This document shows positions 11,210-64,000 of a DNA stretch of 64,000 bases, one piece after another. Under the pieces are notes generated by a model. That model had not been told where the DNA came from, did no database searches, and saw only the letters and a program-made list of their open reading frames with translations. The stretch covers positions 248,001 through 312,000 of the forward strand of contig NZ_QPKV01000006.1 of the NCBI RefSeq assembly GCF_003339865.1, read 5' to 3'. The DNA is from Pedobacter chinensis. Its GTDB lineage: Bacteria > Bacteroidota > Bacteroidia > Sphingobacteriales > Sphingobacteriaceae. Every line of letters starts with the position of its first letter. Positions within the stretch are counted from its first letter, which is position 1. The translations under genes and the position numbers were made by a program.

Positions 11210-11571
11210 ATGAAAAAAATTCTGCTGGTCGACGATGATCAAGGCAACTTAGAAGTACTTTCTTTTTTATTTGCAGACGAAGGCTATCTTGTAAAGTCGC
11301 TGGAATCGCCAGGGATATTGCTTCAGTAATTGAAAGCTTCCAGCCAGAGTTGATCTTCATGGATGTAATCCTAAATGGAGATAACGGCCTTGATATCTGT
11401 CAAGCAATTAAAGAAAGCTCCTTCACTAAGCATATTAAAATAGTCATGATGACCGCATCTAATGCATTTTCGAAAGTTGAAAGGGAAACTTACCTGGCAG
11501 ATTATTATATATCGAAGCCGTTTGATATTAATGAGATAGCTGCGATGGCGAAACAACTAATTGGTAAGTAG
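11210..11571 (+). pseudogene. Single-domain response regulator with a frameshift
   Basis: The first part (MKKILLVDDDQGNLEVLSFL) is a normal receiver start with the acidic DDD triad, but it stops after 38 codons. The downstream frame gives RDIASVIESFQPELIFMDV, with the phosphoacceptor Asp, followed by IVMMTASN and YISKPFDINEIAAM with the conserved Lys. One base change near 11310 (CCAGGGAT) would restore a receiver of about 120 residues with no output domain. It may be a real frameshift or a sequencing error. It sits 12 bases after the PAP2 gene and was probably the last gene of that unit. Confidence 0.8.
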
Positions 11572-12080
11572 GTATTAATATACTAATCCAAGAAAATATT
11601 CTTCCAAATCAATTAACACATCTGATTTCGTACAGAAAAAACTCAGCCAACTTTTTTTAAAAATTATTGAAAAAATTGATCTGAAGATTTTTTAAGAAAG
11701 AGATGAAAAAACCACCAATCTTAAAGTTAAATTGATGTTTTAGCAGAAAATATATTTGTGGACAATAATGTAATCTACACATTATAGATAAAAAATACGC
11801 CTTTGAAATGGTTTAAATGATGTTTTTTATTTATTATAAATAATTGACTAAAAAACTCTGCCAAAACTCAGCTCAATTGCCCAAAATGACAAATATTTGA
11901 TTTTCAAATATTTATGGGCTTTTTATTTTAAAATTTGTCTGAGTTTGGACTTTGAAAGCTATCGCTATTACTTAAATAAGGCTTACTGGCCGCTATTTTG
12001 TAGTTAGTGGAGAATATTGCATTAGAACTAATATGGTTAACGTAATAATGTGATTTTGATTTATTTAAGTGGAATCGTAA
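11572..12080. other. AT-rich gene-free stretch with degenerate repeats
   Basis: No protein-like frame is seen. It contains ACTCAGCCAA at about 11641, a second cluster (ACTCTGCCAAAACTCAG) near 11855, and the 16-base word GAGAATATTGCATTAG at 12010-12025, which also occurs at 2143-2158. The segment near 11850-11900 resembles one at 15343-15390 on the far side of the LytS/LytTR pair. Confidence 0.5.
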
Positions 12081-12872
12081 TTAAACGCTATTTTTTCCTG
12101 TTGGCTTTTTGATTTTCCAGATGGCGATTATGGCTATAAGTATGATCAAGAAATAGGGGAAAGATACATTGAACATATTATAGGTCGTATGGCTGTCGAT
12201 GATGATTACCAAAGCGGAATTTTTGCCACCTGTAGTTCGTGGAATAAGTTCCTGTGCATAGTTCCATCCCAAATGGATCCCGATCGGAAACATTAAGTTT
12301 TTAGTTTTAATATAGGCCAGGCCAAAGAGCACTGAGCCAGCACCGGTGGACAACATAACTAGAATAATATCATTTGTCTCCATCCCCTTATTAATGTGCA
12401 TCAATCCAAATGGAATAGCGATCAGTAACTGTGCAACCCATGAACGATAATTTTTTAGCAGCTCTTGGAAAGGATACCCCCTAAAAACAAATTCCTGAAC
12501 AAATGCCGACCAGAGGCACATCAGAAAAGTTATAATGACAAAAATTAAATTAATATGGGTGTTCAGTTTCCAGTTGTCCTTGGTAAGTAAAATGGTCAAA
12601 ATAAAAGTAAAAATCAGCATCATTATCCCGATACCAAGACCACCAAAAAAATCTGCAATGGTATTTTTGTCTTTTGGCCAGAATCCTATCGAAACAAGAG
12701 ATCGATTTTCTAATCTGAGAAATGCCCAGCTCATCAGTAGGGCAATTGTAAAAAAGAAAATAAAATCGTTGAGCATAGGAACTGTTCCAGCAATAAGGGT
12801 AGCCACCCATAAGATTAGGAAGTAGCAAAGTACCTTAATCCATGCTGGGGCGTTGATAATCATGTTTTTCAT
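12081..12872 (-). CDS. CPBP-family intramembrane metalloprotease homologue
   Basis: A 263-residue multi-pass membrane protein with the CPBP (Rce1/Abi) core. Motif 1 reads QEFVFRG, motif 2 is FGLMHINKG and motif 3 is IGIHLGWNYAQE. The family normally has EExxxR in motif 1. Here the first Glu is Gln, while the second Glu and the Arg are kept. About eight hydrophobic segments can be counted. CPBP proteins act as prenyl-protein proteases, bacteriocin-immunity factors or scaffolds. With the Glu-to-Gln change this copy may be catalytically altered (inference). It is isolated between AT-rich repeats. Confidence 0.82.
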   Translation of the reverse strand: MKNMIINAPAWIKVLCYFLILWVATLIAGTVPMLNDFIFFFTIALLMSWAFLRLENRSLVSIGFWPKDKNTIADFFGGLGIGIMMLIFTFILTILLTKDNWKLNTHINLIFVIITFLMCLWSAFVQEFVFRGYPFQELLKNYRSWVAQLLIAIPFGLMHINKGMETNDIILVMLSTGAGSVLFGLAYIKTKNLMFPIGIHLGWNYAQELIPRTTGGKNSALVIIIDSHTTYNMFNVSFPYFLIILIAIIAIWKIKKPTGKNSV

Positions 12873-13090
12873 AACTGCGAATTTTCTGCAAATAGCTTAA
12901 GTATAAATTTGCTAGCAACTTTAATCGACAGAATAGGAAAAAATCTACATAAACACATGTTTTTAGGTAACAAGAAGAGGGTTACCTAAAGAAAAATCGC
13001 TCATTGGCCAGTAACTAGATTTCATTGGTAAATTTAGCGTGTTGGTCGTTAATATTTGTAGTAACGTAAGGAAAAGCAGATATTTAATCT

Positions 13091-14197
13091 ATGCAGACCT
13101 CCAAAATCATAAAAAAAATCTACGCTAAGCCAACAATCAGGATAAGCCTGCACCTTCTTTTTTGGACTGTACTGTTCGGGGTAAAACTCTATCTTACAAA
13201 TGTTTCATTTAATGTGTATAGATCCTTCCCGACAACAGTATATCTATTTTTAACGTTGGTTGGCACAATTGTTCTAGCCACATTCTATTATATAGCGGTA
13301 TATGGAATCTTGCCTATATTACAAAAAAGGCGTTACACGGTCGGGATTACTTATTTACTTATAGCATTGGCGTGCTATACCGTGCTAGATTCTTATCTGG
13401 AAGTATTCATTATAGGCATGTGTGAAGCATGCAAAGGAATATTGAGGCATGAGAATGCGGCCTATGCATCTTATTTAAACCGCGGACTCATAAATGTAGT
13501 ACTGACCAGACTGTTGGGATTGGGTACACCCATTCTACTGTTGTTTGCGCTGTGTATTCCATTCAGCATTAAAATGGCCATCCAAGCCTTTAGGAGCAAC
13601 ATCCGAGCCTTGGAACTGGCCAAGGACAATCTACAACTTGAGTTCAGCTTCTTAAAGGCACAGCTAAATCCACATTTTCTGTTCAATGCCATGAACAATA
13701 TATATGGGCTTATTCTCAGTGGCGATAAGGAGAAATCGGCAGGATTGGTATCAAGACTTTCTGAATTGTTGCGTTATACCCTGTACGATTCTAATGAAGA
13801 TCTGATGCCAATTGAAAGAGAGCTGAAGCTGATGAACGATTATATCGAACTGGAGAAAGTGAGGCTGAACGATACCAAAGTGAATTTTAAATGGCAATTA
13901 GACAACAACGACTATCACATCGCCCCTTTATTGTTAATGCCGTTAATCGATAATGCTTTTAAATATAATAGTGATGAAGAGGGTTCATATATTGATATCT
14001 TTTTGGACGTGTTGCAGGGAAAATTCAGGTTTACAATTGAGAATGGTATAGTTGAAGAACAAAAAGGGTATGTAGTTGGGGGTATAGGTATCAATAACCT
14101 GAAAAAAAGATTGGAACTTTATTATAAGGACAATCATTGGTATGAAACTTCAGTGTTAGATGGTGTTTATTCTGTAGATTTAACTATCCAACTATGA
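13091..14197 (+). CDS. LytS-type sensor histidine kinase
   Basis: A 368-residue kinase of the His_kinase (LytS/YehU) family. It has four membrane helices in the first 175 residues, a short coiled linker, the phosphoacceptor motif AQLNPHFLFNAMNNIYGL, then LLRYTLYDS and an ATPase domain with LLLMPLIDNAFKYN and GGIGINNLKKRLELYY. There is no periplasmic sensor of any size, so the signal is probably sensed within the membrane. Its stop overlaps the next ATG by four bases (ATGA), coupling it to the LytTR regulator. Confidence 0.93.
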   Translation: MQTSKIIKKIYAKPTIRISLHLLFWTVLFGVKLYLTNVSFNVYRSFPTTVYLFLTLVGTIVLATFYYIAVYGILPILQKRRYTVGITYLLIALACYTVLDSYLEVFIIGMCEACKGILRHENAAYASYLNRGLINVVLTRLLGLGTPILLLFALCIPFSIKMAIQAFRSNIRALELAKDNLQLEFSFLKAQLNPHFLFNAMNNIYGLILSGDKEKSAGLVSRLSELLRYTLYDSNEDLMPIERELKLMNDYIELEKVRLNDTKVNFKWQLDNNDYHIAPLLLMPLIDNAFKYNSDEEGSYIDIFLDVLQGKFRFTIENGIVEEQKGYVVGGIGINNLKKRLELYYKDNHWYETSVLDGVYSVDLTIQL

Positions 14198-14895
14198 TTA
14201 AACTGAATTGTCTTATTGTTGATGATGAACCCATTGCAAGAAACCTGCTCGAAGGGTACATAGGGAGAATCCCAGAAGTATTGCTCGTTAAGAAATGCAA
14301 GAATGCGACCGAAGCCTATGAAGCTTTGCACGAAACTTCCATCGATCTCATTTTCTTGGATATCCAGATGCCAACCATTACGGGAACAGAATTTTTGAGG
14401 TCATTGCGCAGGCCGCCCCTAGTTGTTTTTACCACAGCCTTTGCCAATTTTGCAGTAGAGGGCTTTGAACTAAACTCTGTAGATTACCTATTGAAGCCAA
14501 TCACATTTGAACGATTTTATCAGGCCGTACAGAAAGCTATAGATCGAAAAACACCACTTCATCCCCAACCGATGCCAGAAACTCCTGATTACATTTTTAT
14601 TAAACAGGATTCGAAGTTGGTGCGCATCGACCATGCTGATATTGATTTTCTCCGAGCAGAAAAGGATTTCTGTTGGATCTTCTGTGGTGGCGAAGTTAAA
14701 TACTTTGTATCCATGCACCTCAAGATGTTGGAAGAAATGCTGCCTGCCAATAAATTTCAACGTATTCATCGTTCCTATTTGGTCAATCTCTCCAAGATAA
14801 AGGCGTTAAAAGGAAATACTTTGGCCTTGCGATCGGAAGAAATTCCAATAGGAGCAAACTATCGTCAGCTCTTAATGGAAAAATTAGGACTGTAA
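14194..14895 (+). CDS. LytTR-family response regulator
   Basis: A 233-residue regulator. The receiver has DDEP near the start, the phosphoacceptor Asp in IDLIFLDIQMPTITG and the Lys in DYLLKPITFERF. The LytTR DNA-binding domain follows, with FIKQDSKLVRIDHADIDFL and FQRIHRSYLVNLSKI. It is the coupled partner of the kinase just upstream. LytTR proteins usually bind imperfect direct repeats upstream of one or a few local genes. The repeated ACTCAGCCAAA words that flank this pair on both sides deserve a look as possible targets (inference only). Confidence 0.93.
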   Translation: MIKLNCLIVDDEPIARNLLEGYIGRIPEVLLVKKCKNATEAYEALHETSIDLIFLDIQMPTITGTEFLRSLRRPPLVVFTTAFANFAVEGFELNSVDYLLKPITFERFYQAVQKAIDRKTPLHPQPMPETPDYIFIKQDSKLVRIDHADIDFLRAEKDFCWIFCGGEVKYFVSMHLKMLEEMLPANKFQRIHRSYLVNLSKIKALKGNTLALRSEEIPIGANYRQLLMEKLGL

Positions 14896-15574
14896 TTTAT
14901 TGGTTGACAATAATGTATTTTACTCAAAAAAAAGATATTGTATTAAAATCAATGTGGTATGTGAGTTTAAATTTACAACTCAGCCAAACCAACTTTAAAG
15001 GGGGGTGGATGATAAATGTTTTATTCTCCACAAACGCAACATCTAGTTAACAGATCATTGGCGGTTTTTGAAGTGGTTTTGTTATTTTTTGTCTCCGATA
15101 TGTTTTATTTGTAAAAAGCTAAAAAATACGGCTAAAACCCAGCCATAAAATTTTAGAGATGTAGTAGAAATTTTTTAGAATTTTTGGAAATATAAGAGGT
15201 GTAGAATGCAAAATTATCCACTAATAATTTTAAAGTTTTTTAGAAAATTCAGCCAAATTTGGTAAATTAGGTAATACGAAAATTAATAAAAATTAAGCTT
15301 AAAGAGCTTTTAATGCGGATCTTTGATGATTTTGAACATTGAAAACTCAGCCAAAACTCAGTCAAATTATCAAAATGACAGATAAAAAACCGCTTTTAGA
15401 GCATCAAAAACAGCGTTTAGAGTGCGTAATTGATGAAATATCTACTCCGATACCCTCCATCTGGATATTCGGTTGATTCATCATGATGAGAAACTAAAAT
15501 AATAACATTTTGTTCAGGAATCGGGAACTCTCGAGGCAATTTGAAAGACGGGAATATTCCGCACAATTTAGCTT
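14896..15574. repeat. Gene-free AT-rich stretch with repeated ACTCAGCCAAA-type words
   Basis: No protein-like frame. Copies or near-copies of AACTCAGCCAAA are at about 14978, 15246 and 15344 (a weaker AACCCAGCCA lies near 15135). The last copy is followed by a second ACTCAGTCAAA and ATCAAAATGACA, closely matching the stretch near 11855-11890. Similar words are at 2225 and 11640. Confidence 0.55.
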
Positions 15575-16003
15575 TTACATATCATCAGGATGACTGTGTA
15601 TCCTTGTCTTGAATTCAATATAACGGTCCGTCATTACGATCAGCACTTTTCCTTCCTCTAAGATCATGTGCCCAAATTCATAACAGAAAAAATAATCGCC
15701 CTTTTTAGTGTGCAGAATATTGGTGTAGTATTCAAAATTGTAGCCCCTGTCCAGCATCCAGCCCCTGGTGACGATCTTGGTGTCGTTCAGAAAAGCACCT
15801 GTTGATTTCATGATCGAACGGTTTCTTCTCAGGTCTCGGGTAATCTCATAGATGCATTTGTCTTCTCCCCAGGCATCGCTCCGCCTTTTAACGCTATTGG
15901 CCCGGTTGCGGCATTCGTCGTTACAGTATTTTTTGTCAGAGCGTCCAAAGAGCTCTTTTCCGCATCCGGAGTATTGGCATCTGCGGTCGAAAACATAGGT
16001 CAG
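15575..16003 (-). pseudogene. Zinc-finger protein lacking a start codon
   Basis: The readable frame begins at about 16003 with LTYVFDRRCQYSGCGKELFG and runs to the stop at 15575. It holds a four-cysteine cluster (CQYSGCG then KKYCNDECRNRANS), a basic helix (DLRRNRSIM) and a C-terminal domain (RGYNFEYYTNI, GDYFFCYEFGHMILEE). This matches a small Bacteroidota family with a CxxCG-GRSDKKFC-type zinc finger; I know no function for it. No ATG, GTG or TTG precedes the frame before an in-frame TGA. The upstream DNA instead belongs to the AbiEii remnant, so the N-terminus was lost at a junction near 16020. An ATG at 15811 gives only the 78-codon tail. Confidence 0.65.
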
Positions 16004-16019
16004 CTTGCCATGTTTGCTA

Positions 16020-16260
16020 CTGGTAATCAGTCATATATCCCCAAGTATTTTTGATCCATAAAATTCCTTGACTTCTTCAAGAATTTTTTGATATCCTAGT
16101 TTGCCAATTATTTCAGGGAAAAATAATCAATATCATCAGAAACTCTATGTCAATAACGAATTGCTAGGTTTGTTCCTCCACCCAAAGTGGAAAGATGTAG
16201 TGAAGGTAATGATTGAAGTTCCTTTATAGTTTCTAAAAGGACTTCTGATACTGGTTTCAT
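16020..16260 (-). pseudogene. AbiEii/AbiGii nucleotidyltransferase toxin fragment
   Basis: Starting at an ATG that overlaps the preceding gene by ATGA, the frame reads MKPVSEVLLETIKELQSLPS, then STLGGGTNLAIRY, an in-frame TGA, then RVSDDIDYFFPEIIG and GYQKILEEVKEFYG. The GGTxLA...R..DDIDFF pattern is the nucleotidyltransferase core of AbiEii-type toxins. Only about 80 codons remain before the sequence changes into the zinc-finger gene, and the in-frame stop lies inside the catalytic motif. It is clearly a dead remnant. It was the second gene of a toxin-antitoxin-like pair with the DUF6922-type gene. Confidence 0.75.
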
Positions 16261-16544
16261 AAACTGTATCTTGAAAAAGAAGGGATATGATATCTTTCAG
16301 CAATCATTGAACATACTTGATTGCTAATTTTTTCTTTAGTAGACTTCAATTCTTTAATAATATCTAATTTATCATAAATTTTTTCAAGTCTTAAAATATC
16401 CTCGTCAAACGTATCAGAATTTGTTGCAAAAAGTGCCCTCGGAATAATAATATCCTTGTCTTTTTTAAAGTCAAGTTTATTCATATCCATATCCCAGAAT
16501 AGGTAGTTAGGGAAGATATTCGATATGTTAATGCTTCTTTTCAC
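16257..16544 (-). CDS. DUF6922-type protein (putative partner of AbiEii toxin)
   Basis: The C-terminal 95 residues look like a small Bacteroidota family that sits directly upstream of AbiEii toxins: NISNIFPNYLFWDMDMNKLD, then KDKDIIIPRALFAT and a C-terminal RYHIPSFSRYSL. The open frame extends up to an ATG at 16628, but those 28 residues are hydrophobic and atypical. A GTG at 16544 (VKRSINIS) fits the family start better. It overlaps the toxin fragment by ATGA. The antitoxin-like gene seems intact while the toxin is destroyed. The family name is from memory. Confidence 0.65.
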   Translation of the reverse strand: MKRSINISNIFPNYLFWDMDMNKLDFKKDKDIIIPRALFATNSDTFDEDILRLEKIYDKLDIIKELKSTKEKISNQVCSMIAERYHIPSFSRYSL

Positions 16545-16628
16545 TATGACAAATATAAAGATAATATTTAATATGCATTTGTAACTACAACATCTATACC
16601 AAATGAAGATAATAAATGACAAATTCAT

Positions 16629-17261
16629 TAATGATCATTATAATTTTGCTTGTAATCTAATTGGAGATTTAGACTTATGTCATAAACAAATAGCTTTACT
16701 GACAAGTATAGTGGAGTTGGTACCAATTCCGAAAGCTGTACTAAAGATTATAAGAAATTTCAGGATTTGATGAAGACTGGCAACTATGACAGAGACAGGA
16801 CGACTTCCTGTAATTGAAATAGAAAAATGCCAAGTTACTATTTAGTATTCCTCTTTAAGGCTTCGTTTTGGTAAAAGAAAGGCAAAGATCAAGTTATACC
16901 AACGGAAATAGGTAAAGACATAAGTTATTTATCTATTTGCTATTTCTTAATGTTACCATTTATGTTTATGGCATCTGTAAATTGATGTGAAACCTGAATG
17001 GAGTTAATTTGTTGGCAGAGAGCGGCTATAAGCCAAAATCATTGAATATCTTGCTTATTCCATTCAATTCTTTTCCAATGTTAATGATTTACTTGCTTCG
17101 TATTAAAAGTAACATATAAGAATATTGATTTGGTATTCTGAATGGCTAATGTTTAGACAACCGTAGCAACACCTTAAACCGGATCTGATGATGTTAACTT
17201 CTTGTGGATTATAAACACAGATGTGTTATTTTTAAATTGATTTTCGAATAGGTTTGATTTT
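16629..17261. other. Gene-free stretch with possible short coding remnants
   Basis: No supportable gene. A short protein-like string (TKDYKKFQDLMKTGNYDRD) can be read on the plus strand near 16733-16795 but is cut by stops on both sides. It may be a scrap of a mobile-element gene. The rest is AT-rich leader sequence for the beta-helix gene. Confidence 0.35.
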
Positions 17262-19607
17262 ATGAAAAAATTGATATTGGTTGCCCTCGTATCGTTATTA
17301 TTCCAGAATGCTTCCGGACAAATTTATCATGTCTCCGCTTCTGGAAGCGACCGCAATGCCGGATCAAGTACCCAACCCTTTAAAAGTTTATCAAAAGCGA
17401 TCGCTGTTTCAATTTCGCAACAGGGCAAGGCGGTGACGATAGAAATTGCCGGAGGAACTTATCCACTTGAAAAAACCATCAGTATACACTCAGATGATTA
17501 TAAAGCATCATCCCTTCTCATCAGATCCCGTGAAAATGAACATGTCGTGCTTAAAGGATCAGAAAAAATAAACCCAACCTGGAAAACGTTCAGGGGAAAG
17601 ATTCTGTTCAGTAAAATAGATTTGGGAGAAAATTTTGACGATCTCTATTTAGACGGCAAAAAACTGCACATGGCCCGATATCCAAATTTTGACAGTACCG
17701 CGAGGGTGTTTAACGGAACGGCAGGCGATGCATTGGCTGAAGATCGCATCAAAACCTGGGCAGATCCTTCGGGAGGATATATCCATGCATTGCATGAGGG
17801 AGAATGGGGCGATTTTCACTATTTGATTAAGAAAAAAGATGCCGCAGGCCTGTTGGTGTATGAAGGTGGCTGGCAAAACAACCGGCCTGCTAAAATGCAT
17901 GCAGAGCACCGGTATGTAGAGCATATCTTTGAGGAGCTCGATTCGCCCGGAGAGTGGTTTTATAATAAAAAAACAAAAACGCTTTATCTCATCCCTCCCT
18001 CAAATCAGGATGTGAAGAGGGGCACATTTTATATAACCAGACACACTGAACTTATTTCAATCCGTGGAAGCCTGGAAAAACCAGTTCGGCACATTAAAAT
18101 TCAGGGAATTGACTTTACCGAGACTTCCAGAAGCTTCATGCAGGTTCGTGAGCCGCTACTTCGTAGTGACTGGGCCATTCTGCGTAGCGGAGCATTATTT
18201 CTGGAAGGCACGGAGGATGTTAGCGTTACCGACTGCAATTTTTATCAACTTGGTGGCAGCGCAGTATTTCTGAGCCGCTACAATAAGAACGTCAACATAG
18301 TGGACAATCATATTCACGATATCGGCGCCAACGGAGTTGCATTCGTGGGTGATCCTGCCGCGGTACGTTCGCCTGCATTCAGATATGAAGAGTTTGTTCC
18401 TTATGAAAAAATGGACATGGCGCCCGGGCCGATCGGCAAAAACTTTCCGCAAGATTGTTACGCTTCCGGGAACCTTATACATAATACCGGAACCATCGAA
18501 AAGCAGTCTGCCGGTGTGCAGATTTCTATGGCGTCCAAAATTCTTGTGCGTCACAATACCATATACCAGGTTCCACGTGCGGGCATAAACGTGAGCGAAG
18601 GTACCTGGGGAGGGCATATCATAGAATTTAACGAAGTTTTTGACACCGTGCTTGAAACAGGAGATCATGGTGCTTTTAATTCCTGGGGGCGAGACAGGTA
18701 CTGGAGGCCTGAACGCCAGATTGTAGACAGTATTGTTGCAGCGAGGCCCGGAATTGAACTGCTGGATATTATTGATCCCATCATTATCCGAAACAACAGA
18801 TTTCGTTGTGACCATGGCTGGGATATTGACCTGGATGATGGCAGCAGCAATTACCGGATATACAACAATATATGTTTGCGTGGCGGATTAAAACTTAGAG
18901 AAGGTTATAACCGTATTGTAACAAACAACATAATCATCAACAACACCTTTCATCCTCATGTATGGCTCAAAAACAGCAGAGATGAGTTTAGCAGGAACAT
19001 TGTTACAACTGCTTATGCACCAATACTGATGGATAATTGGGGAGCAAAAATTGACAGTAACTATTTCCTCAGCGAGGAAGCCTTGAAAAATAGCCGCATT
19101 GCAAATAATGATGTTAACAGCAATTATGGAGATGCCGGTTTTGTTGATGAACAGAATGGAAATTACAGGCTTAAAATCAATTCTGATGCGTTTTCTGTAG
19201 GATTCAAAAACTTTGATACAGATTTTGGTGTTACCTCGGCCAGGTTGAAAAAAATTGCCAGCAAACCACAGATAGATGCATTGGCTGTTAAAAAACAGCA
19301 CGTTATATCCGATCAGACCGAATGGCTCGGGGCTACCTGCAAGAATATTGAAAACCTGGGAGAACGTTCTGCCGCCGGCCTTCATAATGACAATGGTGTA
19401 TTATTGATCAAACTCTTACCCGGATCAATCGCTGAAAAAAATGGATTTAAAAAAGGGGATGTGGTGATCGGACTGAATAATAATGTAGTCAAAAATGTTA
19501 ACGATCTCCAAAAAATATATCAGGAGATAAGTCTGGAGGGAAAGATAAAAGTGGACATCATGAGAAATCAAAATGCAATGCAGTTGGATATATCCCTGAA
19601 AGATTGA
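17262..19607 (+). CDS. Secreted right-handed beta-helix protein with C-terminal PDZ domain
   Basis: A 781-residue secreted protein. It has a signal peptide (residues 1-19, ending NASG), then YHVSASGSDRNAGSSTQPFK, the usual opening of parallel beta-helix proteins of the pectate-lyase/glycosidase superfamily. A long series of helix coils rich in N-N-x-I (VDNHIHDIGANGVAF, NNIIINNTFHPH) follows. From about residue 690 a PDZ-like domain follows: LIKLLPGSIAEKNGFKKGDVVIGLNN. Such proteins act on plant or microbial polysaccharides, but the enzyme class cannot be fixed. A PDZ tail on a beta-helix enzyme is unusual and may bind a partner or the peptide terminus of a protein. It appears monocistronic. 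Confidence 0.85.
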   Translation: MKKLILVALVSLLFQNASGQIYHVSASGSDRNAGSSTQPFKSLSKAIAVSISQQGKAVTIEIAGGTYPLEKTISIHSDDYKASSLLIRSRENEHVVLKGSEKINPTWKTFRGKILFSKIDLGENFDDLYLDGKKLHMARYPNFDSTARVFNGTAGDALAEDRIKTWADPSGGYIHALHEGEWGDFHYLIKKKDAAGLLVYEGGWQNNRPAKMHAEHRYVEHIFEELDSPGEWFYNKKTKTLYLIPPSNQDVKRGTFYITRHTELISIRGSLEKPVRHIKIQGIDFTETSRSFMQVREPLLRSDWAILRSGALFLEGTEDVSVTDCNFYQLGGSAVFLSRYNKNVNIVDNHIHDIGANGVAFVGDPAAVRSPAFRYEEFVPYEKMDMAPGPIGKNFPQDCYASGNLIHNTGTIEKQSAGVQISMASKILVRHNTIYQVPRAGINVSEGTWGGHIIEFNEVFDTVLETGDHGAFNSWGRDRYWRPERQIVDSIVAARPGIELLDIIDPIIIRNNRFRCDHGWDIDLDDGSSNYRIYNNICLRGGLKLREGYNRIVTNNIIINNTFHPHVWLKNSRDEFSRNIVTTAYAPILMDNWGAKIDSNYFLSEEALKNSRIANNDVNSNYGDAGFVDEQNGNYRLKINSDAFSVGFKNFDTDFGVTSARLKKIASKPQIDALAVKKQHVISDQTEWLGATCKNIENLGERSAAGLHNDNGVLLIKLLPGSIAEKNGFKKGDVVIGLNNNVVKNVNDLQKIYQEISLEGKIKVDIMRNQNAMQLDISLKD

Positions 19608-19844
19608 ACCAATGTTTTCTGACCTACCAATAACAGGCTGCGAAGCTTACTCCAGTAACCCTCTCTCCATTCACAGTTTGGTTCGCATGGAAAAGAAGCT
19701 TGATTGCTAATTGCTGCTTTCAATTATGGGTTGTTTTCATTCTCAACGCAACAATTGTTTTAATTGGTATGATAGGGAAAAGCACCGCACTATACCAGGA
19801 AATGATGCCCTTCCTGTTTTGATTAAAAGCATGTGGGTTCAGTT

Positions 19845-20265
19845 TTATGAATTGCGAATTGATGAGATAAACCTTATCTTCCTGGTAATGTTGTTCACCA
19901 CAGCATGCGTCCCTTGTGCATCATATCTGGACGAAGGGCTTGTGATAACTCTATCTTGACCATATTCTCGCCTAATTGCCCTTAAAGCATCTGCGATAGA
20001 GAAGGCATACATTTTAAATGGTTTGCCATCGATAAGCACCTTTATGTTAGCACTGCCAAGGACAGAAATCGCCCCATTTCCGTCAACATTAATCATCGGA
20101 ACTTTTCTTAGGATATCCGAGGCATCCGGACCAGGCATTTGCAGGCAAGCTTTCTACATTGAAAACGATCCCGTCTATGCGCCGCTCGATGACTGGCCTT
20201 TGACCTCGGATAACGATGGTATTTAGGTTTATAGGTAATCTTTTAGTTAAAGAGTCTGCTTTAAG
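19845..20265 (-). pseudogene. TonB-receptor plug-domain fragment
   Basis: Readable pieces are DSLKADSLTKRLPINLNTIV, RPVIERRIDGIVFNVE and, after a small frame break near 20130, DASDILRKVPMINVDGNGAI, VLGSANIKVLIDGKP and SSRYDAQGTHAVVN. This is the plug of an outer-membrane beta-barrel TonB receptor, of the same family as the intact gene at 7938. Both the N-terminal regulatory domain and the entire barrel are missing. It is a clear leftover of a deleted gene. Confidence 0.8.
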
Positions 20266-20412
20266 AGAATCAGATCTTATCTACCTTTTGCCCCAGGGCA
20301 GAAATATAGTAACAAGATAAAAAAACAGCTAATTTTAGGCATGTGTCTTTTTGTTCAAAATTATTCGGGCCTTTAGTTAACAGAGTTCTCCATGAGCTTT
20401 GGCAAGCTTACC

Positions 20413-20868
20413 TCAATATTTAAGAAACGCAAGTGTCTCGCCTTTGGGAAGTTCATGTGATGCATAATGAAGGCTAAGATCATGATGGGCGTTTCCCTTG
20501 CGCAGTAGTAATAGCTCTTTTATGGCGATGGTCATGGTTTCGTTCGAATGAGTGCCATCGGCAAATGCCCACTTCTTTAACACATTACCTTTGTTCCCCC
20601 TCAATTCAATGCTCCGGGAAGTACCGCCTGTCTTTGTTGTACAATGTGTGTAATTGATGCGCAATTGGTCGCTTTGCTTCGCCCCGGCAAGTTGCAGTAT
20701 TCTCGAACTCAAAGGCTGGTTTACCGCCACTTTTAAAACGAGCTTATTGTTCAGAGAAATCTCGTAACTGTCTAATCCGAATTTTGGTGTGAAACCAAAT
20801 ACGGTAAAGCATAAGGTAATCAGCGTAAACATCTTAATAAACGCATGACTGGATTTAATTTGTTGCAT
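20413..20868 (-). CDS. Hypothetical secreted protein
   Basis: A 151-residue protein starting MQQIKSSHAFIKMFTLITLC, with an apparent signal peptide (basic start, hydrophobic run to about residue 28). The mature part is soluble and beta-rich, with a Cys in YTHCTTKTGG and a charged tail. The frame is open to 20952, but the extra 28 residues are AT-rich leader. I recognise no family. It is divergent from a LytS/LytTR pair, with 220 bases between the two starts. That is a classical position for a target of the LytTR regulator (inference). Confidence 0.65.
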   Translation of the reverse strand: MQQIKSSHAFIKMFTLITLCFTVFGFTPKFGLDSYEISLNNKLVLKVAVNQPLSSRILQLAGAKQSDQLRINYTHCTTKTGGTSRSIELRGNKGNVLKKWAFADGTHSNETMTIAIKELLLLRKGNAHHDLSLHYASHELPKGETLAFLKY

Positions 20869-21088
20869 AGTATAAGTTTTAAATGAAATAATAGAGTTAC
20901 TGCACAATAGTAACTTTAAATGCACCAAAGTGAAAAAATAGTAGACCAACAACCAGAATAATAGACGTCAGTTTTTCGCCGTTTATATTCATCTATTTTT
21001 TAAGCTGTTTGTCGATATAATTTTGACACTTGAATGCTTTTCGTTTCTTTTGAGCGGAAATATACCATTAGCACTAAACCGATAGAAA

Positions 21089-53084: not shown

Positions 53085-53384
53085 TCTTTTTTTTGAAAAG
53101 CAATTCACTGCTGAGATTATTGTTCATCCTGTTTTTTGTTGCAATCTTTTTGTGATTGTTGAATTGGTAATGAATGTTTCTTCAGCAAAAAGGAATTTTC
53201 ACGTCAACCAGGTTTATGTAACTCCGGTAAATTTAAGAGCCGTTCGCCCTGCTTGAACTGTGGTATTTGAAAGATGCTAATTGAATTTTAACTTTCCTTA
53301 GTATCATTTCCTATGCCAGCGAATGGGTAACGAGGATTTGTTTTAGGCAAGGCGCATAGTACACTAGGAATACATACCTACGTG
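53085..53384. other. Gene-free region upstream of the CRISPR array (leader candidate)
   Basis: No protein-like frame. As the array is transcribed on the plus strand, this is the expected leader side. It is not strongly AT-rich next to the first repeat, and I see no clear promoter. It must also contain the end of the LytTR transcript. Confidence 0.45.
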
Positions 53385-56300
53385 GTTGTGATTTGCTTTC
53401 ATTCTTTGAACTACTGATATTTACAACAACTTGACCCTGCGATCACCCGCGCTTTGCTCTGGTTGTGATTTGCTTTCATTCTTTGAACTACTGATATTTA
53501 CAACAACAACAGCGCTGTTTTAGTTGATTACCTAGTGTTGTGATTTGCTTTCATTCTTTGAGCTACTGATATTTACAACAACTCGTTTACACTATACTTA
53601 CACCAGAAAAGTGTTGTGATTTGCTTTCATTCTTTGAACTACTGATATTTACAACAACGATGTGATGTCTGGATTGAAGATAAAAGCTGTTGTGATTTGC
53701 TTTCATTCTTTGAACTACTGATATTTACAACAACAGGAAGCATTCACATGAGTAGTGAACTGCCGTTGTGATTTGCTTTCATTCTTTGAACTACTGATAT
53801 TTACAACAACCATGATCAATATCAAGTATGATGTTGCCATGTTGTGATTTGCTTTCATTCTTTGAACTACTGATATTTACAACAACGTCGCAGTACGAAG
53901 AGAAAGCCGTAACAGGGTTGTGATTTGCTTTCATTCTTTGAACTACTGATATTTACAACAACATAGATCTTCTGTTAGCTCGCATGCGATGCGTTGTGAT
54001 TTGCTTTCATTCTTTGAACTACTGATATTTACAACAACCTTATGAATTACGCTGCGGCATTTAAACTGGTTGTGATTTGCTTTCATTCTTTGAACTACTG
54101 ATATTTACAACAACAACTCTTTTCTGAAAGCATGACTATAAGGTGTTGTGATTTGCTTTCATTCTTTGAACTACTGATATTTACAACAACGTTATCAATA
54201 GTGATTGGAAACATACACTGGTTGTGATTTGCTTTCATTCTTTGAACTACTGATATTTACAACAACAATGTATTGACCAACCTTGTAAGTCATTTGGTTG
54301 TGATTTGCTTTCATTCTTTGAACTACTGATATTTACAACAACCGAAAGATGATTTGGCATCTGCATGAATAGGTTGTGATTTGCTTTCATTCTTTGAACT
54401 ACTGATATTTACAACAACAATGAAACGTGATTTCCTTAAGGCAGTTCCGTTGTGATTTGCTTTCATTCTTTGAACTACTGATATTTACAACAACAACTTT
54501 CGTTGAACCTTTCCCTTCAGACGAGTTGTGATTTGCTTTCATTCTTTGAACTACTGATATTTACAACAACCAGGCCTTTTTTACAGTAGATCAATGCATC
54601 GTTGTGATTTGCTTTCATTCTTTGAACTACTGATATTTACAACAACTGGCCTTTTCAGCGGAAAACATCAGGTTGGGTTGTGATTTGCTTTCATTCTTTG
54701 AACTACTGATATTTACAACAACTTCTAAGTCTAATGCGGTTGCGATGCTTTCGTTGTGATTTGCTTTCATTCTTTGAACTACTGATATTTACAACAACAG
54801 AAAATCAAAAATGACAACGGACGTTTGGTTGTGATTTGCTTTCATTCTTTGAACTACTGATATTTACAACAACCATTCCTAATGACAACGGGAAGCCGAT
54901 TAAGTTGTGATTTGCTTTCATTCTTTGAACTACTGATATTTACAACAACAGCTCCTAATGAAATAACCCATTCATTATGTTGTGATTTGCTTTCATTCTT
55001 TGAACTACTGATATTTACAACAACACAATATTGTCAAAGCCTTTATCATTTATAGTTGTGATTTGCTTTCATTCTTTGAACTACTGATATTTACAACAAC
55101 TTCTGCAAGTAATTCGTTTGCAAGTTCTAAGTTGTGATTTGCTTTCATTCTTTGAACTACTGATATTTACAACAACATGGTTGCTATGTGGATGTAGTGG
55201 TTAGGGGTTGTGATTTGCTTTCATTCTTTGAACTACTGATATTTACAACAACCCTTAAACCTTTACCCATCCCCTGCTCAAGGTTGTGATTTGCTTTCAT
55301 TCTTTGAACTACTGATATTTACAACAACTCGTTTACACTATACTTACACCAGAAAAGTGTTGTGATTTGCTTTCATTCTTTGAACTACTGATATTTACAA
55401 CAACGATGTGATGTCTGGATTGAAGATAAAAGCTGTTGTGATTTGCTTTCATTCTTTGAACTACTGATATTTACAACAACAGGAAGCATTCACATGAGTA
55501 GTGAACTGCCGTTGTGATTTGCTTTCATTCTTTGAACTACTGATATTTACAACAACCATGATCAATATCAAGTATGATGTTGCCATGTTGTGATTTGCTT
55601 TCATTCTTTGAACTACTGATATTTACAACAACGTCGCAGTACGAAGAGAAAGCCGTAACAGGGTTGTGATTTGCTTTCATTCTTTGAACTACTGATATTT
55701 ACAACAACCAAAAAAATGAATTTTCTATAGCTGTAGGTTGTGATTTGCTTTCATTCTTTGAACTACTGATATTTACAACAACAATGTGCTTCATCAGCTA
55801 TAATTAAACCGAGTTGTGATTTGCTTTCATTCTTTGAACTACTGATATTTACAACAACTCTATAGGAGTACAGAATACTTCACATAATGTTGTGATTTGC
55901 TTTCATTCTTTGAACTACTGATATTTACAACAACATATAAACTGATTTCTGATCGTAAGTTCGGTTGTGATTTGCTTTCATTCTTTGAACTACTGATATT
56001 TACAACAACTTCTTCATCATCAACCTCTGTAATAAATAAGTTGTGATTTGCTTTCATTCTTTGAACTACTGATATTTACAACAACGATGTGATGTCTGGA
56101 TTGAAGATAAAAGCTGTTGTGATTTGCTTTCATTCTTTGAACTACTGATATTTACAACAACAAGTTTCTAAATGAATCAAACCATTCATTGTTGTGATTT
56201 GCTTTCATTCTTTGAACTACTGATATTTACAACAACCTTTACCCGCGCATCGGTGTTGAGCCAATAGTTGTGATTTGCTTTCATTCTTTGAACTACTGAT

Positions 56301-57983
56301 ATTTACAACAACTCAGCACTTTATTAACACAATCCTCAAACTGTTGTGATTTGCTTTCATTCTTTGAACTACTGATATTTACAACAATATCAATGTGGAC
56401 GCACTTTGATCATTCATCGTTGTGATTTGCTTTCATTCTTTGAACTACTGATATTTACAACAACCTAGGTACTCGTTTAGCCAATAAATAGTAAGCTGTG
56501 ATTTGCTTTCATTCTTTGAACTACTGATATTTACAACAACAATACGACATAAAAGTAACACCTTTTAACGGTTGTGATTTGCTTTCATTCTTTGAACTAC
56601 TGATATTTACAACAACCTTTACCTGTGTCATCCAGCCCTAAAAGTTGTTGTGATTTGCTTTCATTCTTTGAACTACTGATATTTACAACAACTTAAACAA
56701 ATGTATTGAAAAACTCGATAAAGTTGTGATTTGCTTTCATTCTTTGAACTACTGATATTTACAACAACCACGTCTAAACGTGGTGGTGTTTCTCTTGAGT
56801 TGTGATTTGCTTTCATTCTTTGAACTACTGATATTTACAACAACACTGATCGTTCCACCTCTTACCGCCGCATAGTTGTGATTTGCTTTCATTCTTTGAA
56901 CTACTGATATTTACAACAACTAATATAAACCCCTTTAGCATCAACAATTAGTTGTGATTTGCTTTCATTCTTTGAACTACTGATATTTACAACAACGAAG
57001 ATATTGACGAATACATTGAAGATTTGTTGTGATTTGCTTTCATTCTTTGAACTACTGATATTTACAACAACCGTAAATGACTATGGGATCATCATCGGCC
57101 GGTTGTGATTTGCTTTCATTCTTTGAACTACTGATATTTACAACAACTAGAACCCCGTCCCTTACTGTGAATTTTGCGTTGTGATTTGCTTTCATTCTTT
57201 GAACTACTGATATTTACAACAACCAAATAAGCCAGAGGAGAAAGTACCTAAGTGTTGTGATTTGCTTTCATTCTTTGAACTACTGATATTTACAACAACA
57301 ATTAGATTTGCGCCATTAACGTTTACTTTGTTGTGATTTGCTTTCATTCTTTGAACTACTGATATTTACAACAACTGTAGGTTCCATTAAATGCCCTGCC
57401 AAAGTGTTGTGATTTGCTTTCATTCTTTGAACTACTGATATTTACAACAACTTTAGCTTTTCCATAATATTATTTATTTAGGTTGTGATTTGCTTTCATT
57501 CTTTGAACTACTGATATTTACAACAACCAAAACCTTTTGATTGGCAAGAGAACCGTAGTTGTGATTTGCTTTCATTCTTTGAACTACTGATATTTACAAC
57601 AACTACAACGAATTCAGAAATAACCAAGCTCCTGTTGTGATTTGCTTTCATTCTTTGAACTACTGATATTTACAACAACAAAGCAGCATGCGAGTATTTT
57701 CAATGGTGTGTTGTGATTTGCTTTCATTCTTTGAACTACTGATATTTACAACAACAAACAATCTTGATAGTTTGAGCATGGGAGAGTTGTGATTTGCTTT
57801 CATTCTTTGAACTACTGATATTTACAACAACTGAGGTTGCTGCCAATTGCAACAGGGATTTGTTGTGATTTGCTTTCATTCTTTGAACTACTGATATTTA
57901 CAACAACTATACTAGATGTTTTTGATGAATGGGACTAGTTGTGATTTGCTTTCATTCTTTGAACTACTGATATTTACAACAAC
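53385..57983 (+). CRISPR. Type II-C CRISPR array, 61 repeats and 60 spacers
   Basis: A 46-base repeat beginning GTTGTGATTTGCTTTCATTC and ending CTGATATTTACAACAAC, with GTTGT/ACAAC ends. Most spacers are 30 bases (28-31). I counted 61 repeats and 60 spacers. Variant repeats: the third (53537) has GAGCTAC for GAACTAC, one near 56341 ends AAT instead of AAC, and the next but one (about 56496) begins GCTGTG. Spacers 3-7 recur in the same order as 26-30, and spacer 4 recurs again as 36, leaving 54 different spacers. The 5' part of the repeat is complementary to the predicted tracrRNA, which fixes transcription on the plus strand, toward cas2. Confidence 0.98.
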
Positions 57984-58038
57984 ATACCATAGTTCAATTA
58001 ACTATCCATCAGTAGGTTAGTTCAAAAATTAGAATTAA

Positions 58039-58070
58039 AAAAAATCGGATGTATTTGCATCCGATTTTTT
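58039..58070. terminator. Bidirectional terminator between array and cas2
   Basis: A stem AATCGGATG / CATCCGATT with A- and T-runs on the outer sides and a 6-base loop. It lies between the convergent CRISPR array and cas2 and can end both transcripts. Confidence 0.88.
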
Positions 58071-58106
58071 ATTCTAATCATTTCTTTTATTGTAATGGTA
58101 TTATTT

Positions 58107-58436
58107 TTAAAACAATTCGAGTTGTTGCGGAGTATCAGGTAATTCTTTTTCTTTCTTTCCGTAAAATAATTCCATCATCCCAAATTGCTTATCTGTAACC
58201 GTCATGATACCGATATGCCCTTTTTCTGGTAATAATCTTTTAACCCGATTAATATGTACATCGGCATTTTCTCTACTGCTGCAGTGCCTCAAATAAATAG
58301 AGAATTGAAACATCGCAAAGCCATCCTTTAAAATTTCTTTACGAAATTTAGAAGCTATGCTACGTTCTTTTTTCGTTTCAGTTGGCAAATCAAAGAAAAC
58401 TAATACCCACAAAATTCGATATTCATTTAAACGCAT
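58107..58436 (-). CDS. cas2: CRISPR-associated endoribonuclease-like Cas2
   Basis: A 109-residue Cas2, the small partner that forms the Cas1-Cas2 integration complex. The first strand MRLNEYRILWVLVFFDLPTE carries the conserved Asp of the ferredoxin-like fold. FQFSIYLRHCSSRENADVHI and GHIGIMTVTDKQFGMMELFY follow. The frame also opens one codon earlier at a TTG (58439), directly after the cas1 stop; the ATG at 58436 is more likely. It is the last gene of the operon, 123 bases from the last repeat. Confidence 0.95.
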   Translation of the reverse strand: MRLNEYRILWVLVFFDLPTETKKERSIASKFRKEILKDGFAMFQFSIYLRHCSSRENADVHINRVKRLLPEKGHIGIMTVTDKQFGMMELFYGKKEKELPDTPQQLELF

Positions 58437-58439
58437 CAA

Positions 58440-59465
58440 TTAGAATGGAAGTTCATCATTAGATTTTTTATAGCCAGGCTCAGTAATTTCATTTATGGTA
58501 ATAGAATTAATGATCTCATCATTTTTATAAAAGCTCCTTTTCGTCTCGAAATTCTTCATGATGGGGTAGTTAATTCTCCGAATCGTTCCTTCATAACATT
58601 TAGCTAAAGAGGAAGTTGTGCTTTGCAGCCCAACCATTAACGGACTTTTGCTCTTTTCAAATTGAACATCAACAGTAGCGATACCTAAAAGTTGTGTTTT
58701 AATTGACGTTCCCAATTCTAAAAAGTTTTCCCCTCTATCTATAATACCCAATACAATTTCATCAACATAGGGGCGATAAGGTTCCATAATATCATCTGCC
58801 AGGCAATAGGCATTGTATTTATTTCGATGATGAATGCCAAGGGTGGGGAGTAAGCCAGAGCAAACTAAGCCTCGGGCAACGATAGCCCTTAAAATGGCAT
58901 AACCATAGTTGAGTAAATTATTGGGCGGATTACCGTCACGGCCACGAAAGAAATCTAATTTTTTAGGGAATACATTTTTCCAGTAATAGGCAGCAGCTCT
59001 ACCTTCATAATTATCAGGATCACCAGAGCGTACAGATTTTGCCCAATGAACCATGTTTTCACACGCAATGCCCCGATTAAAAAGAATGGCTGCCTGGTTT
59101 AAAATTTTAGCCTGAACGGTTTGTTGCCAAAGTTGTTTTTTTAGCGGCTGAGAGGCATCAATTTGATAACGGAACCTTTCACTTTGGGTGTTATGTCCAT
59201 CAATGGGTAGCATCATGCCGGTAGGATGGCGACTCTGATTGCAGGTTATAATGGCTGCATTATTTTCTAATAGTGCAGCAATGCAACCATGGGTAATGGT
59301 TATTTGTTGGTTATCCAAGATAATAATTCCAATATCTTCTATCGGAATCGATTTTTTAGATTCTTTTTCGCCTAATGATTTTAAATGTGGTAAATCAATA
59401 GCGAGCTGGTTTTGCTGTAAACTCAGGTAAGCTGGATTGCTAAAGTGGAGCGTTCTTTTGATCAT
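58440..59465 (-). CDS. cas1: CRISPR-associated integrase Cas1 (type II)
   Basis: A 341-residue Cas1, the metal-dependent integrase that inserts new spacers. Likely metal ligands are Glu154 in NYEGRAAAYYW, His212/213 in LGIHHRNKYNAYCL and Asp225/Glu228 in ADDIMEPYRP. The N-terminal beta domain starts MIKRTLHFSNPAYLSLQQNQ. The C-terminus is some 40 residues longer than many type II Cas1 proteins and is charged (ITEPGYKKSNDELPF). Its ATG overlaps the stop of the unknown 99-codon gene by ATGA. Confidence 0.97.
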   Translation of the reverse strand: MIKRTLHFSNPAYLSLQQNQLAIDLPHLKSLGEKESKKSIPIEDIGIIILDNQQITITHGCIAALLENNAAIITCNQSRHPTGMMLPIDGHNTQSERFRYQIDASQPLKKQLWQQTVQAKILNQAAILFNRGIACENMVHWAKSVRSGDPDNYEGRAAAYYWKNVFPKKLDFFRGRDGNPPNNLLNYGYAILRAIVARGLVCSGLLPTLGIHHRNKYNAYCLADDIMEPYRPYVDEIVLGIIDRGENFLELGTSIKTQLLGIATVDVQFEKSKSPLMVGLQSTTSSLAKCYEGTIRRINYPIMKNFETKRSFYKNDEIINSITINEITEPGYKKSNDELPF

Positions 59466-59761
59466 ACTATAGAAACTTTAAGATTTTCTATTTTTTTGAA
59501 TTTGCTGAAGCTTTCTATATCCACTTTACACTTTATTATCCGTCCAATATTAAATTTAGATAGCGCTAGATCATCCAAATAAAGAAACGGAATTTTTAAA
59601 TCATCAACTTCTGCAATAATTTTTCTTTTATTAGCTTTATCGAGGTTTATTTTGGTCATAAAATCAATGATATTATCTATCTCATCCTTTTTCGCTTCTT
59701 CAAATGAATTAAAAATTTTTATGGTATTTTGGGTTTGATAGAAAATCGAGTGTTTATTCAT
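59462..59761 (-). CDS. Unknown small protein between cas9 and cas1
   Basis: A 99-residue protein starting MNKHSIFYQTQNTIKIFNSF. The first 45 residues look alpha-helical and charged (EEAKKDEIDNIIDFMTKINL). The rest looks beta-rich (RKIIAEVDDLKIPFLYLDDL, NIGRIIKCKVDIESF). There is no signal peptide, membrane segment or cysteine. It does not resemble Csn2 or Cas4. It is locked into the operon: its stop overlaps the cas1 ATG, and its start overlaps a seven-codon mini-frame that in turn overlaps the cas9 stop. I recognise no family. A role in adaptation or Cas9 regulation is only inferred from position. Confidence 0.8.
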   Translation of the reverse strand: MNKHSIFYQTQNTIKIFNSFEEAKKDEIDNIIDFMTKINLDKANKRKIIAEVDDLKIPFLYLDDLALSKFNIGRIIKCKVDIESFSKFKKIENLKVSIV

Positions 59762-63859: not shown

Positions 63860-63867
63860 TATCTTTG
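63860..63867 (+). promoter_or_regulatory. -7 element of the tracrRNA promoter
   Basis: TATCTTTG matches the Bacteroidota -7 consensus TAnnTTTG exactly. It lies directly before the anti-repeat, placing a start near 63873. A clear -33 TTTG is not seen at the usual distance. Confidence 0.55.
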
Positions 63868-63869
63868 AC

Positions 63870-63939
63870 ATGAAAGCAAATCACAATAAGGATTATTCCG
63901 TTGTGAAAACATTCAAAGCGGGGCAACTCGCTTTTTTTA
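63870..63939 (+). ncRNA. tracrRNA of the type II-C system
   Basis: ATGAAAGCAAATCACAA (63870-63886) is the exact complement of 17 bases in the 5' part of the CRISPR repeat. It is followed by a short linker, TTGTGAAAACATTCAAAGCG (nexus-like) and a terminator hairpin AAAGCG...CGCTTT with a T-run ending near 63938. It is transcribed divergently from cas9, from a TAnnTTTG box just upstream. The order anti-repeat, nexus, terminator is standard. The transcript would be about 70 bases. Confidence 0.85.
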
Positions 63940-64000
63940 TTTCTCCATATTTTCCTCAATTTAGCAGCATTAAATAGCTTATGCCGCCAGCCAAAAGAAA

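Follow-up and report, generated by a model that had tools for sequence, protein, structure and literature searches.

A repeated five-spacer block in a CRISPR array of Pedobacter chinensis and the recombination between repeats that probably produced it

The CRISPR array analyzed here raises the question of how a run of five spacers can come to stand twice in one array, at distant places, with one of its members present a third time. The array lies in a stretch of 64,000 nucleotides of the genome of Pedobacter chinensis (hereafter the window), whose features are listed in Table 1. A preliminary description made from the sequence had reported this pattern, and our spacer comparison reproduced it, with the earlier coordinates right within one base: spacers 3-7 are repeated exactly as spacers 26-30, and spacer 4 recurs as spacer 36.

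Table 1. Features of the array and of the neighboring cas genes (positions in the window)
Feature	Position	Strand	Description
CRISPR array	53385..57983	+	61 repeats of 46 nt, 60 spacers (28-31 nt), 54 distinct
Repeat 3	53537..53582	+	A>G at repeat position 26 (53562); left edge of duplicated segment
Block copy one, spacers 3-7	53583..53916	+	spacer comparison
Block copy two, spacers 26-30	55329..55662	+	order and sequence identical to 3-7
Third copy of spacer 4 (spacer 36)	56086..56115	+	exact copy
Putative leader (adaptation end)	57984..58106		conserved non-coding, stem-loop, between last repeat and cas2
cas2	58107..58439	-	Pfam PF09827 4.6e-16; PADLOC Cas2_II
cas1	58440..59465	-	Pfam PF01867 6.6e-31; NCBIfam TIGR03639 5.8e-91 (type II Cas1); PADLOC Cas1_II
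orfX, 99 aa	59462..59761	-	unmatched to any family of Pfam, PADLOC and NCBIfam
cas9, 1306 aa	59775..63695	-	Pfam RuvC_III 6.1e-45, HNH_4 3.4e-17; TIGR01865 1e-141
Putative tracrRNA	63861..63942	+	anti-repeat, then terminator-like hairpin and T run; ends approximate

The two copies of the block are offset by 1746 bp, which corresponds to 23 repeat-spacer units, and 18 spacers (8-25) separate them. Their exact identity covers 400 bp (53563-53962 and 55309-55708). With one mismatch, located in repeat 3, it covers 426 bp from the start of repeats 3/26 to the end of repeats 8/31, so that the breakpoints fall at repeats, identity stopping at the outer edges of these two pairs. Around spacer 36, 123 bp are common with each block copy of spacer 4: the spacer itself, the repeat on either side of it and a single extra base. 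Each copy is followed by a different spacer: copy one by spacer 8, copy two by 31 and the single copy by 37. Crossover substrates are available throughout the array, as 58 of the 61 repeats are identical. The remaining three are single-base variants, namely repeat 3, repeat 40 (changed at position 46) and repeat 42 (changed at position 2). The base change of repeat 3 is absent from repeat 26, as the preliminary description had stated.

The polarity of the array was examined by comparison with relatives. Among 12 loci with a similar repeat (the window and 11 others), conservation is limited to the flank on the cas2 side, which contains an A-rich motif and a stem-loop. Over the first 100 nt on that side, mean identity reaches 72.1% for the 66 pairs of the 12 loci (60.1% when shuffled). 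The corresponding value beside the far end is 54.6% (shuffled 54.1%) over 45 locus pairs, two of the 12 loci having been dropped for a flank that was too short (by their lengths, L028 and L033) and L032 having been kept despite Ns in its flank. A variant end repeat was found at the leader-distal end in 14 of 38 arrays and at the leader end in 3 of 38; these 38 are the members of a set of 62, L035 excluded, that have six repeats or more and a flank of at least 100 nt at each end. Because relatives place the adaptation end at cas2, spacer 1 is probably the oldest and spacer 60 the newest, and copy one of the block probably sits in the old end of the array. In agreement with this polarity, the sections available of the work on the II-C system of Riemerella anatipestifer place a leader of 107 bp between cas2 and the array, with new spacers entering there (PMC5006608), and those of the work on Flavobacterium columnare describe a II-C array transcribed toward its leader (PMC8092290).

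Several observations concern the old ends of these arrays. A truncated repeat (about the 3' 20 nt) stands one spacer length ahead of the first full repeat at the leader-distal ends of L022, L025, L027 and L034; a similar piece adjoins Ns in L032, and the window array has none. In P. mendelii (L023/L024), an inverted partial repeat with the letters of the anti-repeat lies directly at the left, old end of the array. Before the window array, on the minus strand at 53121-53219, we found a sub-threshold match to the Flavo-1 RNA family (36.2 bits vs 42; E 1.1e-4).

Two or more contiguous spacers recurring in order is the mark of a repeat-mediated block duplication, and it is what spacers 3-7 and 26-30 present. 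The same order, the same boundaries, the identity reaching the repeat edges and the uniform repeats make misaligned recombination between repeats the very probable source of the block, whichever route it took. Five independent acquisitions in the same order would be another way to fill both places. Single sites do appear to be resampled in relatives, but five exact sites would be required in one order with no other spacer between them. Five exact 30-mers in one order are not a matter of chance. We hold this origin to be extremely improbable; the preliminary description had called it implausible. The further claim of that description, that repeat-mediated recombination reshaped the array, is supported for the block, on the grounds of order, boundaries and identity to the repeat edges, and is less secure for spacer 36, which could instead be a re-acquisition.

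Under the recombination that we favor, the five-spacer segment would have been copied to a non-adjacent place through misalignment of identical 46-nt repeats. With 18 spacers between the copies and a different spacer after each, the pattern cannot have come from a tandem duplication alone. The most economical route would be a single unequal exchange between two sister arrays with a common stem of spacers 1-7. These arrays would have grown apart after the stem, one by spacers 8-25 and the other by spacer 31 onward, and the exchange would have connected the first array, at the repeat following spacer 25, with the second array at the repeat preceding spacer 3, stacking two histories. Spacer 36 would be explained by the same type of exchange if the branch involved had left the stem once spacer 4 was in place. 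The differing followers are as expected of branches diverging after a common stem, and any non-tandem copying gives the same result. Against such an exchange counts the rarity of recombination between CRISPR arrays, for which the part of PMC11472070 available cites Kupczok et al. 2015. Spacers 8-25 and 31-60 show no clear sign of common targets (best pair 21/37), and the repeats are too uniform to assign parts of the array to parents. Taken further, successive exchanges between sister cells, head to tail, could have stacked three branches (1-25, a re-entry at 3 and a re-entry at 4), a reading that we consider rather doubtful. If it were true, one locus would store the histories of diverged cells, and each block would mark a branching point.

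Alternatively, two steps within one cell may have produced the block: a tandem duplication of units 3-25 by replication misalignment, followed by deletion of 8-25 from the second copy. This scenario overlaps with the main explanation, and we hold it to be possible, though on balance not the likelier course of events. Tandem duplications of one or two spacers are found in the relatives L030, L045, L074 and L084, and blockwise deletions are described as frequent in arrays in the accessible part of PMC11472070. However, the scenario needs two events for the block, and two larger ones more for spacer 36 if that copy also came by recombination, and the array holds no remnant of a second 8-25. Overall, the evidence does not decide between the one-step exchange of sister arrays and the two-step duplication and deletion. 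The base change of repeat 3, which forms the edge of the block, says little here: by either route, repeat 26 would lack the change if the crossover lay to the right of position 26 or if the mutation came later.

The third copy of spacer 4 could also be an independent re-acquisition of the same protospacer. This possibility concerns spacer 36 alone and is compatible with the recombination of the block; we see it as a serious candidate that falls a little short of an even chance. We compared near-identical spacers in 63 arrays (60 surveyed arrays, L021, L022 and the window) and obtained 12 pairs. The odds of synonymy, obtained from 500 random placements, are those of single pairs, uncorrected for the 12 pairs listed, and take the best of six frames in both data and control. 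Three pairs stand out, all dispersed and with unshifted ends: in L028 (28/108), 4/4 changes are synonymous in an open frame (9/500 random placements as good); in L022 (7/60), 4/4 (12/500); and in L084 (2/27), 3/3 (20/500). These three strong pairs suggest that these systems re-acquire the same site from diverged phages, so that re-acquisition can also account for a lone exact copy like spacer 36. Single dispersed exact duplicates are also present elsewhere (two in L027, one in L045 and one in L022). On the other hand, the remaining pairs are weaker, and 4 of the 12 present amino-acid changes (L027 21/35, L084 7/18, L088 5/35 and the window pair 21/37, with four such changes in its best frame). 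Four others, in L021, L030, L086 and L087 (14/18), have one or two changes that are synonymous in the best frame and carry little weight, and pair 10/22 of L087 differs in length only. Furthermore, spacer 4 is already part of a recombined block in the same array, and published reconstructions seldom show re-acquisition (8 of the 805 candidates in the part of PMC11472070 available). The copy itself is exact and not diverged, and its protospacer was not found in the partial searches made of phage, plasmid, IMG/VR and genus-genome sequences.

These searches returned no convincing target for any part of the array. Against 50,697 phage records (E up to 10), the whole array matched 18 records, none convincing (best E about 1), and 13 of the 18, from lactococcal phages and unnamed ones, represent a single match of 28 bases. 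Among 72,556 plasmid records, three were matched by the array, none convincingly (best E 0.4). Exact 20-mers of spacers 3, 4, 5, 6 and 7 gave no match in IMG/VR for any of the five. The 54 distinct spacers, joined, were then compared with 145 genomes of the genus, one per species, with two first-look candidates scored per genome listed. At E ≤ 0.05, 18 genomes matched, the genome of origin included; among the candidates scored, full spacer matches were confined to the array itself. The matches outside it are partial and weak (best E 6.9e-4) and often involve the AT-rich spacer 54. This spacer (window 57452-57481) also has a 28-base match at 93% in its own genome, on contig C12 (75989-76016), which is probably due to chance. 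Within the 64-kb window, no spacer match with five mismatches or fewer lies outside the array. The spacers show no clear excess over shuffles in their relatedness to one another within the array, the best pair (21/37) being borderline, as it was equalled in 2 of 40 shuffles.

As the genome is a draft in 24 contigs, the second block could have been made when the assembly crossed the repeats. The identity of 400 bp exceeds a typical short read, adjacency of two spacers allows two orders, and a probable array artefact exists in one of the surveyed loci, L035. However, adjacency of three spacers (about 140 bp by our estimate) fits the given order only, and for the contig to be linear the junctions 7-8 and 7-31, 2-3 and 25-3 would all have to be real. 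In addition, the window contains 0 Ns, and its three variant repeats are singletons, unlike the changes common to adjacent repeats in L035. From these features of the sequence, an assembly artefact appears unlikely as the source of the second block, and we give it only a slight chance.

Locus L035 (Parapedobacter soli, 11448-20889) was considered as an extreme case of duplication, since its array of at least 125 repeats holds runs of up to five identical adjacent spacers, with 13 families of two to five exact copies, mostly adjacent. Variant bases are common to two or three adjacent repeats there, and many of the runs have further base changes in a copy at one end; for these reasons the pattern is a probable product of assembly gap filling and not of biology, and the locus was left out of the counts. 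In L021 (G033), before position 3855, three adjacent repeat units contain the same insert of about 50 nt inside the repeat, with small differences. This insert could be a small element copied along with the repeats, or an assembly effect.

The gene content beside the array fits a type II-C system: a Cas9 with HNH and RuvC domains, type II cas1 and cas2 beside cas9, and a putative tracrRNA with an anti-repeat. With regard to csn2 (II-A) and cas4 (II-B), orfX is the only other open reading frame of at least 80 aa between cas9 and the array, and the window covers about 300 bp past cas9. The anti-repeat (63870-63886) would pair with the 5' part of the repeat (duplex of -26.5 kcal/mol), which points to the plus strand as the crRNA sense of the array. 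In the sections available, promoters within the repeats are reported for other II-C arrays (PMC8092290), and none was found in the Riemerella repeats (PMC5006608).

We further compared these genes with those of relatives. In 12 other genomes (L022-L034; 13 loci, two from one genome), Cas1 is 76-92% and Cas2 78-99% identical to the proteins of the window, and the repeat is similar in the 11 of these relatives in which an array was found. In contrast, for Cas9 the longest match has an identity of no more than about 21-34% in 11 of the 12 relatives, P. mendelii (88%) being the exception; short pieces of Cas9, mostly N-terminal, reach up to 59% identity. It seems that Cas9 was exchanged while the adaptation module and the repeat stayed fixed. 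This divergence of Cas9 beside conserved Cas1, Cas2 and repeat is more interesting than the duplication of the block. The product of orfX resembles two separate pieces of the P. mendelii locus, the tail of Cas9 and a DUF6036 gene, and orfX looks like a remnant of longer genes between cas9 and cas1. The intervals between these two genes (window 59462-59761; L023 5565-6038; L025 8821-9973; L026 7372-9996; L027 9478-9957; L032 9474-9968) contain a DUF6036 nucleotidyltransferase (weakly AbiEii-like), DUF6155, a PRiA4_ORF3-like protein, a type III restriction-like protein and a HIRAN protein. Judged by these contents, the interval looks like a place for variable cargo.

How unusual is such an array? 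We surveyed the best 80 of at least 478 confirmed loci with an array finder that needs four repeats. An array was found in 61 of the 80, leaving 60 arrays and 1152 spacers without L035, many of the arrays being incomplete because a contig end or the limit of the stored flank falls within them. Among these best 80 of at least 478 loci, extra exact spacer copies amount to 8 of 1152 spacers, in 5 of the 60 arrays, against 6 of 60 in the window; the count of 8 leaves out L022 (G019), which has one dispersed duplicate, and the six of the window perhaps represent two events. The only multi-spacer block in the surveyed arrays of these same loci is a tandem pair in L030. As for the literature, the part of PMC11472070 available lists 805 duplication candidates among 24,090 spacers, 695 of them classed as duplications. 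Repeated spacer blocks are presented in the accessible part of PMC8047081 as a known feature, presumed to be duplications, with repeat misalignment as the proposed cause; the sections available of Deecker and Ensminger (PMC7056967) make no mention of duplication. The window array is therefore at the high end of duplication of a known kind, to which it adds one case.

This case cleanly illustrates that the order of spacers does not follow time strictly. With 400 bp of identity on either side, the 18 spacers between the blocks would also be expected to disappear by recombination, at a rate that could be measured. If the block did come from sister arrays, an array could bring together the memories of sister cells that had diverged.

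Compared with the block duplications described in the available parts of PMC8047081 and PMC11472070, the window shares contiguous spacers in order, identity extending to the repeats and a position in the interior of a polarized array. It differs from them in that the copy is non-adjacent, with 18 spacers between, and that one member is present three times. The system of Riemerella anatipestifer (PMC5006608, as far as available) is likewise a II-C system of the Bacteroidota, with its leader between cas2 and the array, a repeat of 47 nt and duplicated spacers, but its duplicates are single spacers copied once or several times in tandem. The II-C array of Flavobacterium columnare, according to the sections available of PMC8092290, acquires its new spacers at a leader containing poly(A)/poly(T) stretches, in which it can be likened to the window; its repeats are 36 bp long, unlike the 46 nt of the window, and block duplication is not discussed in those sections.
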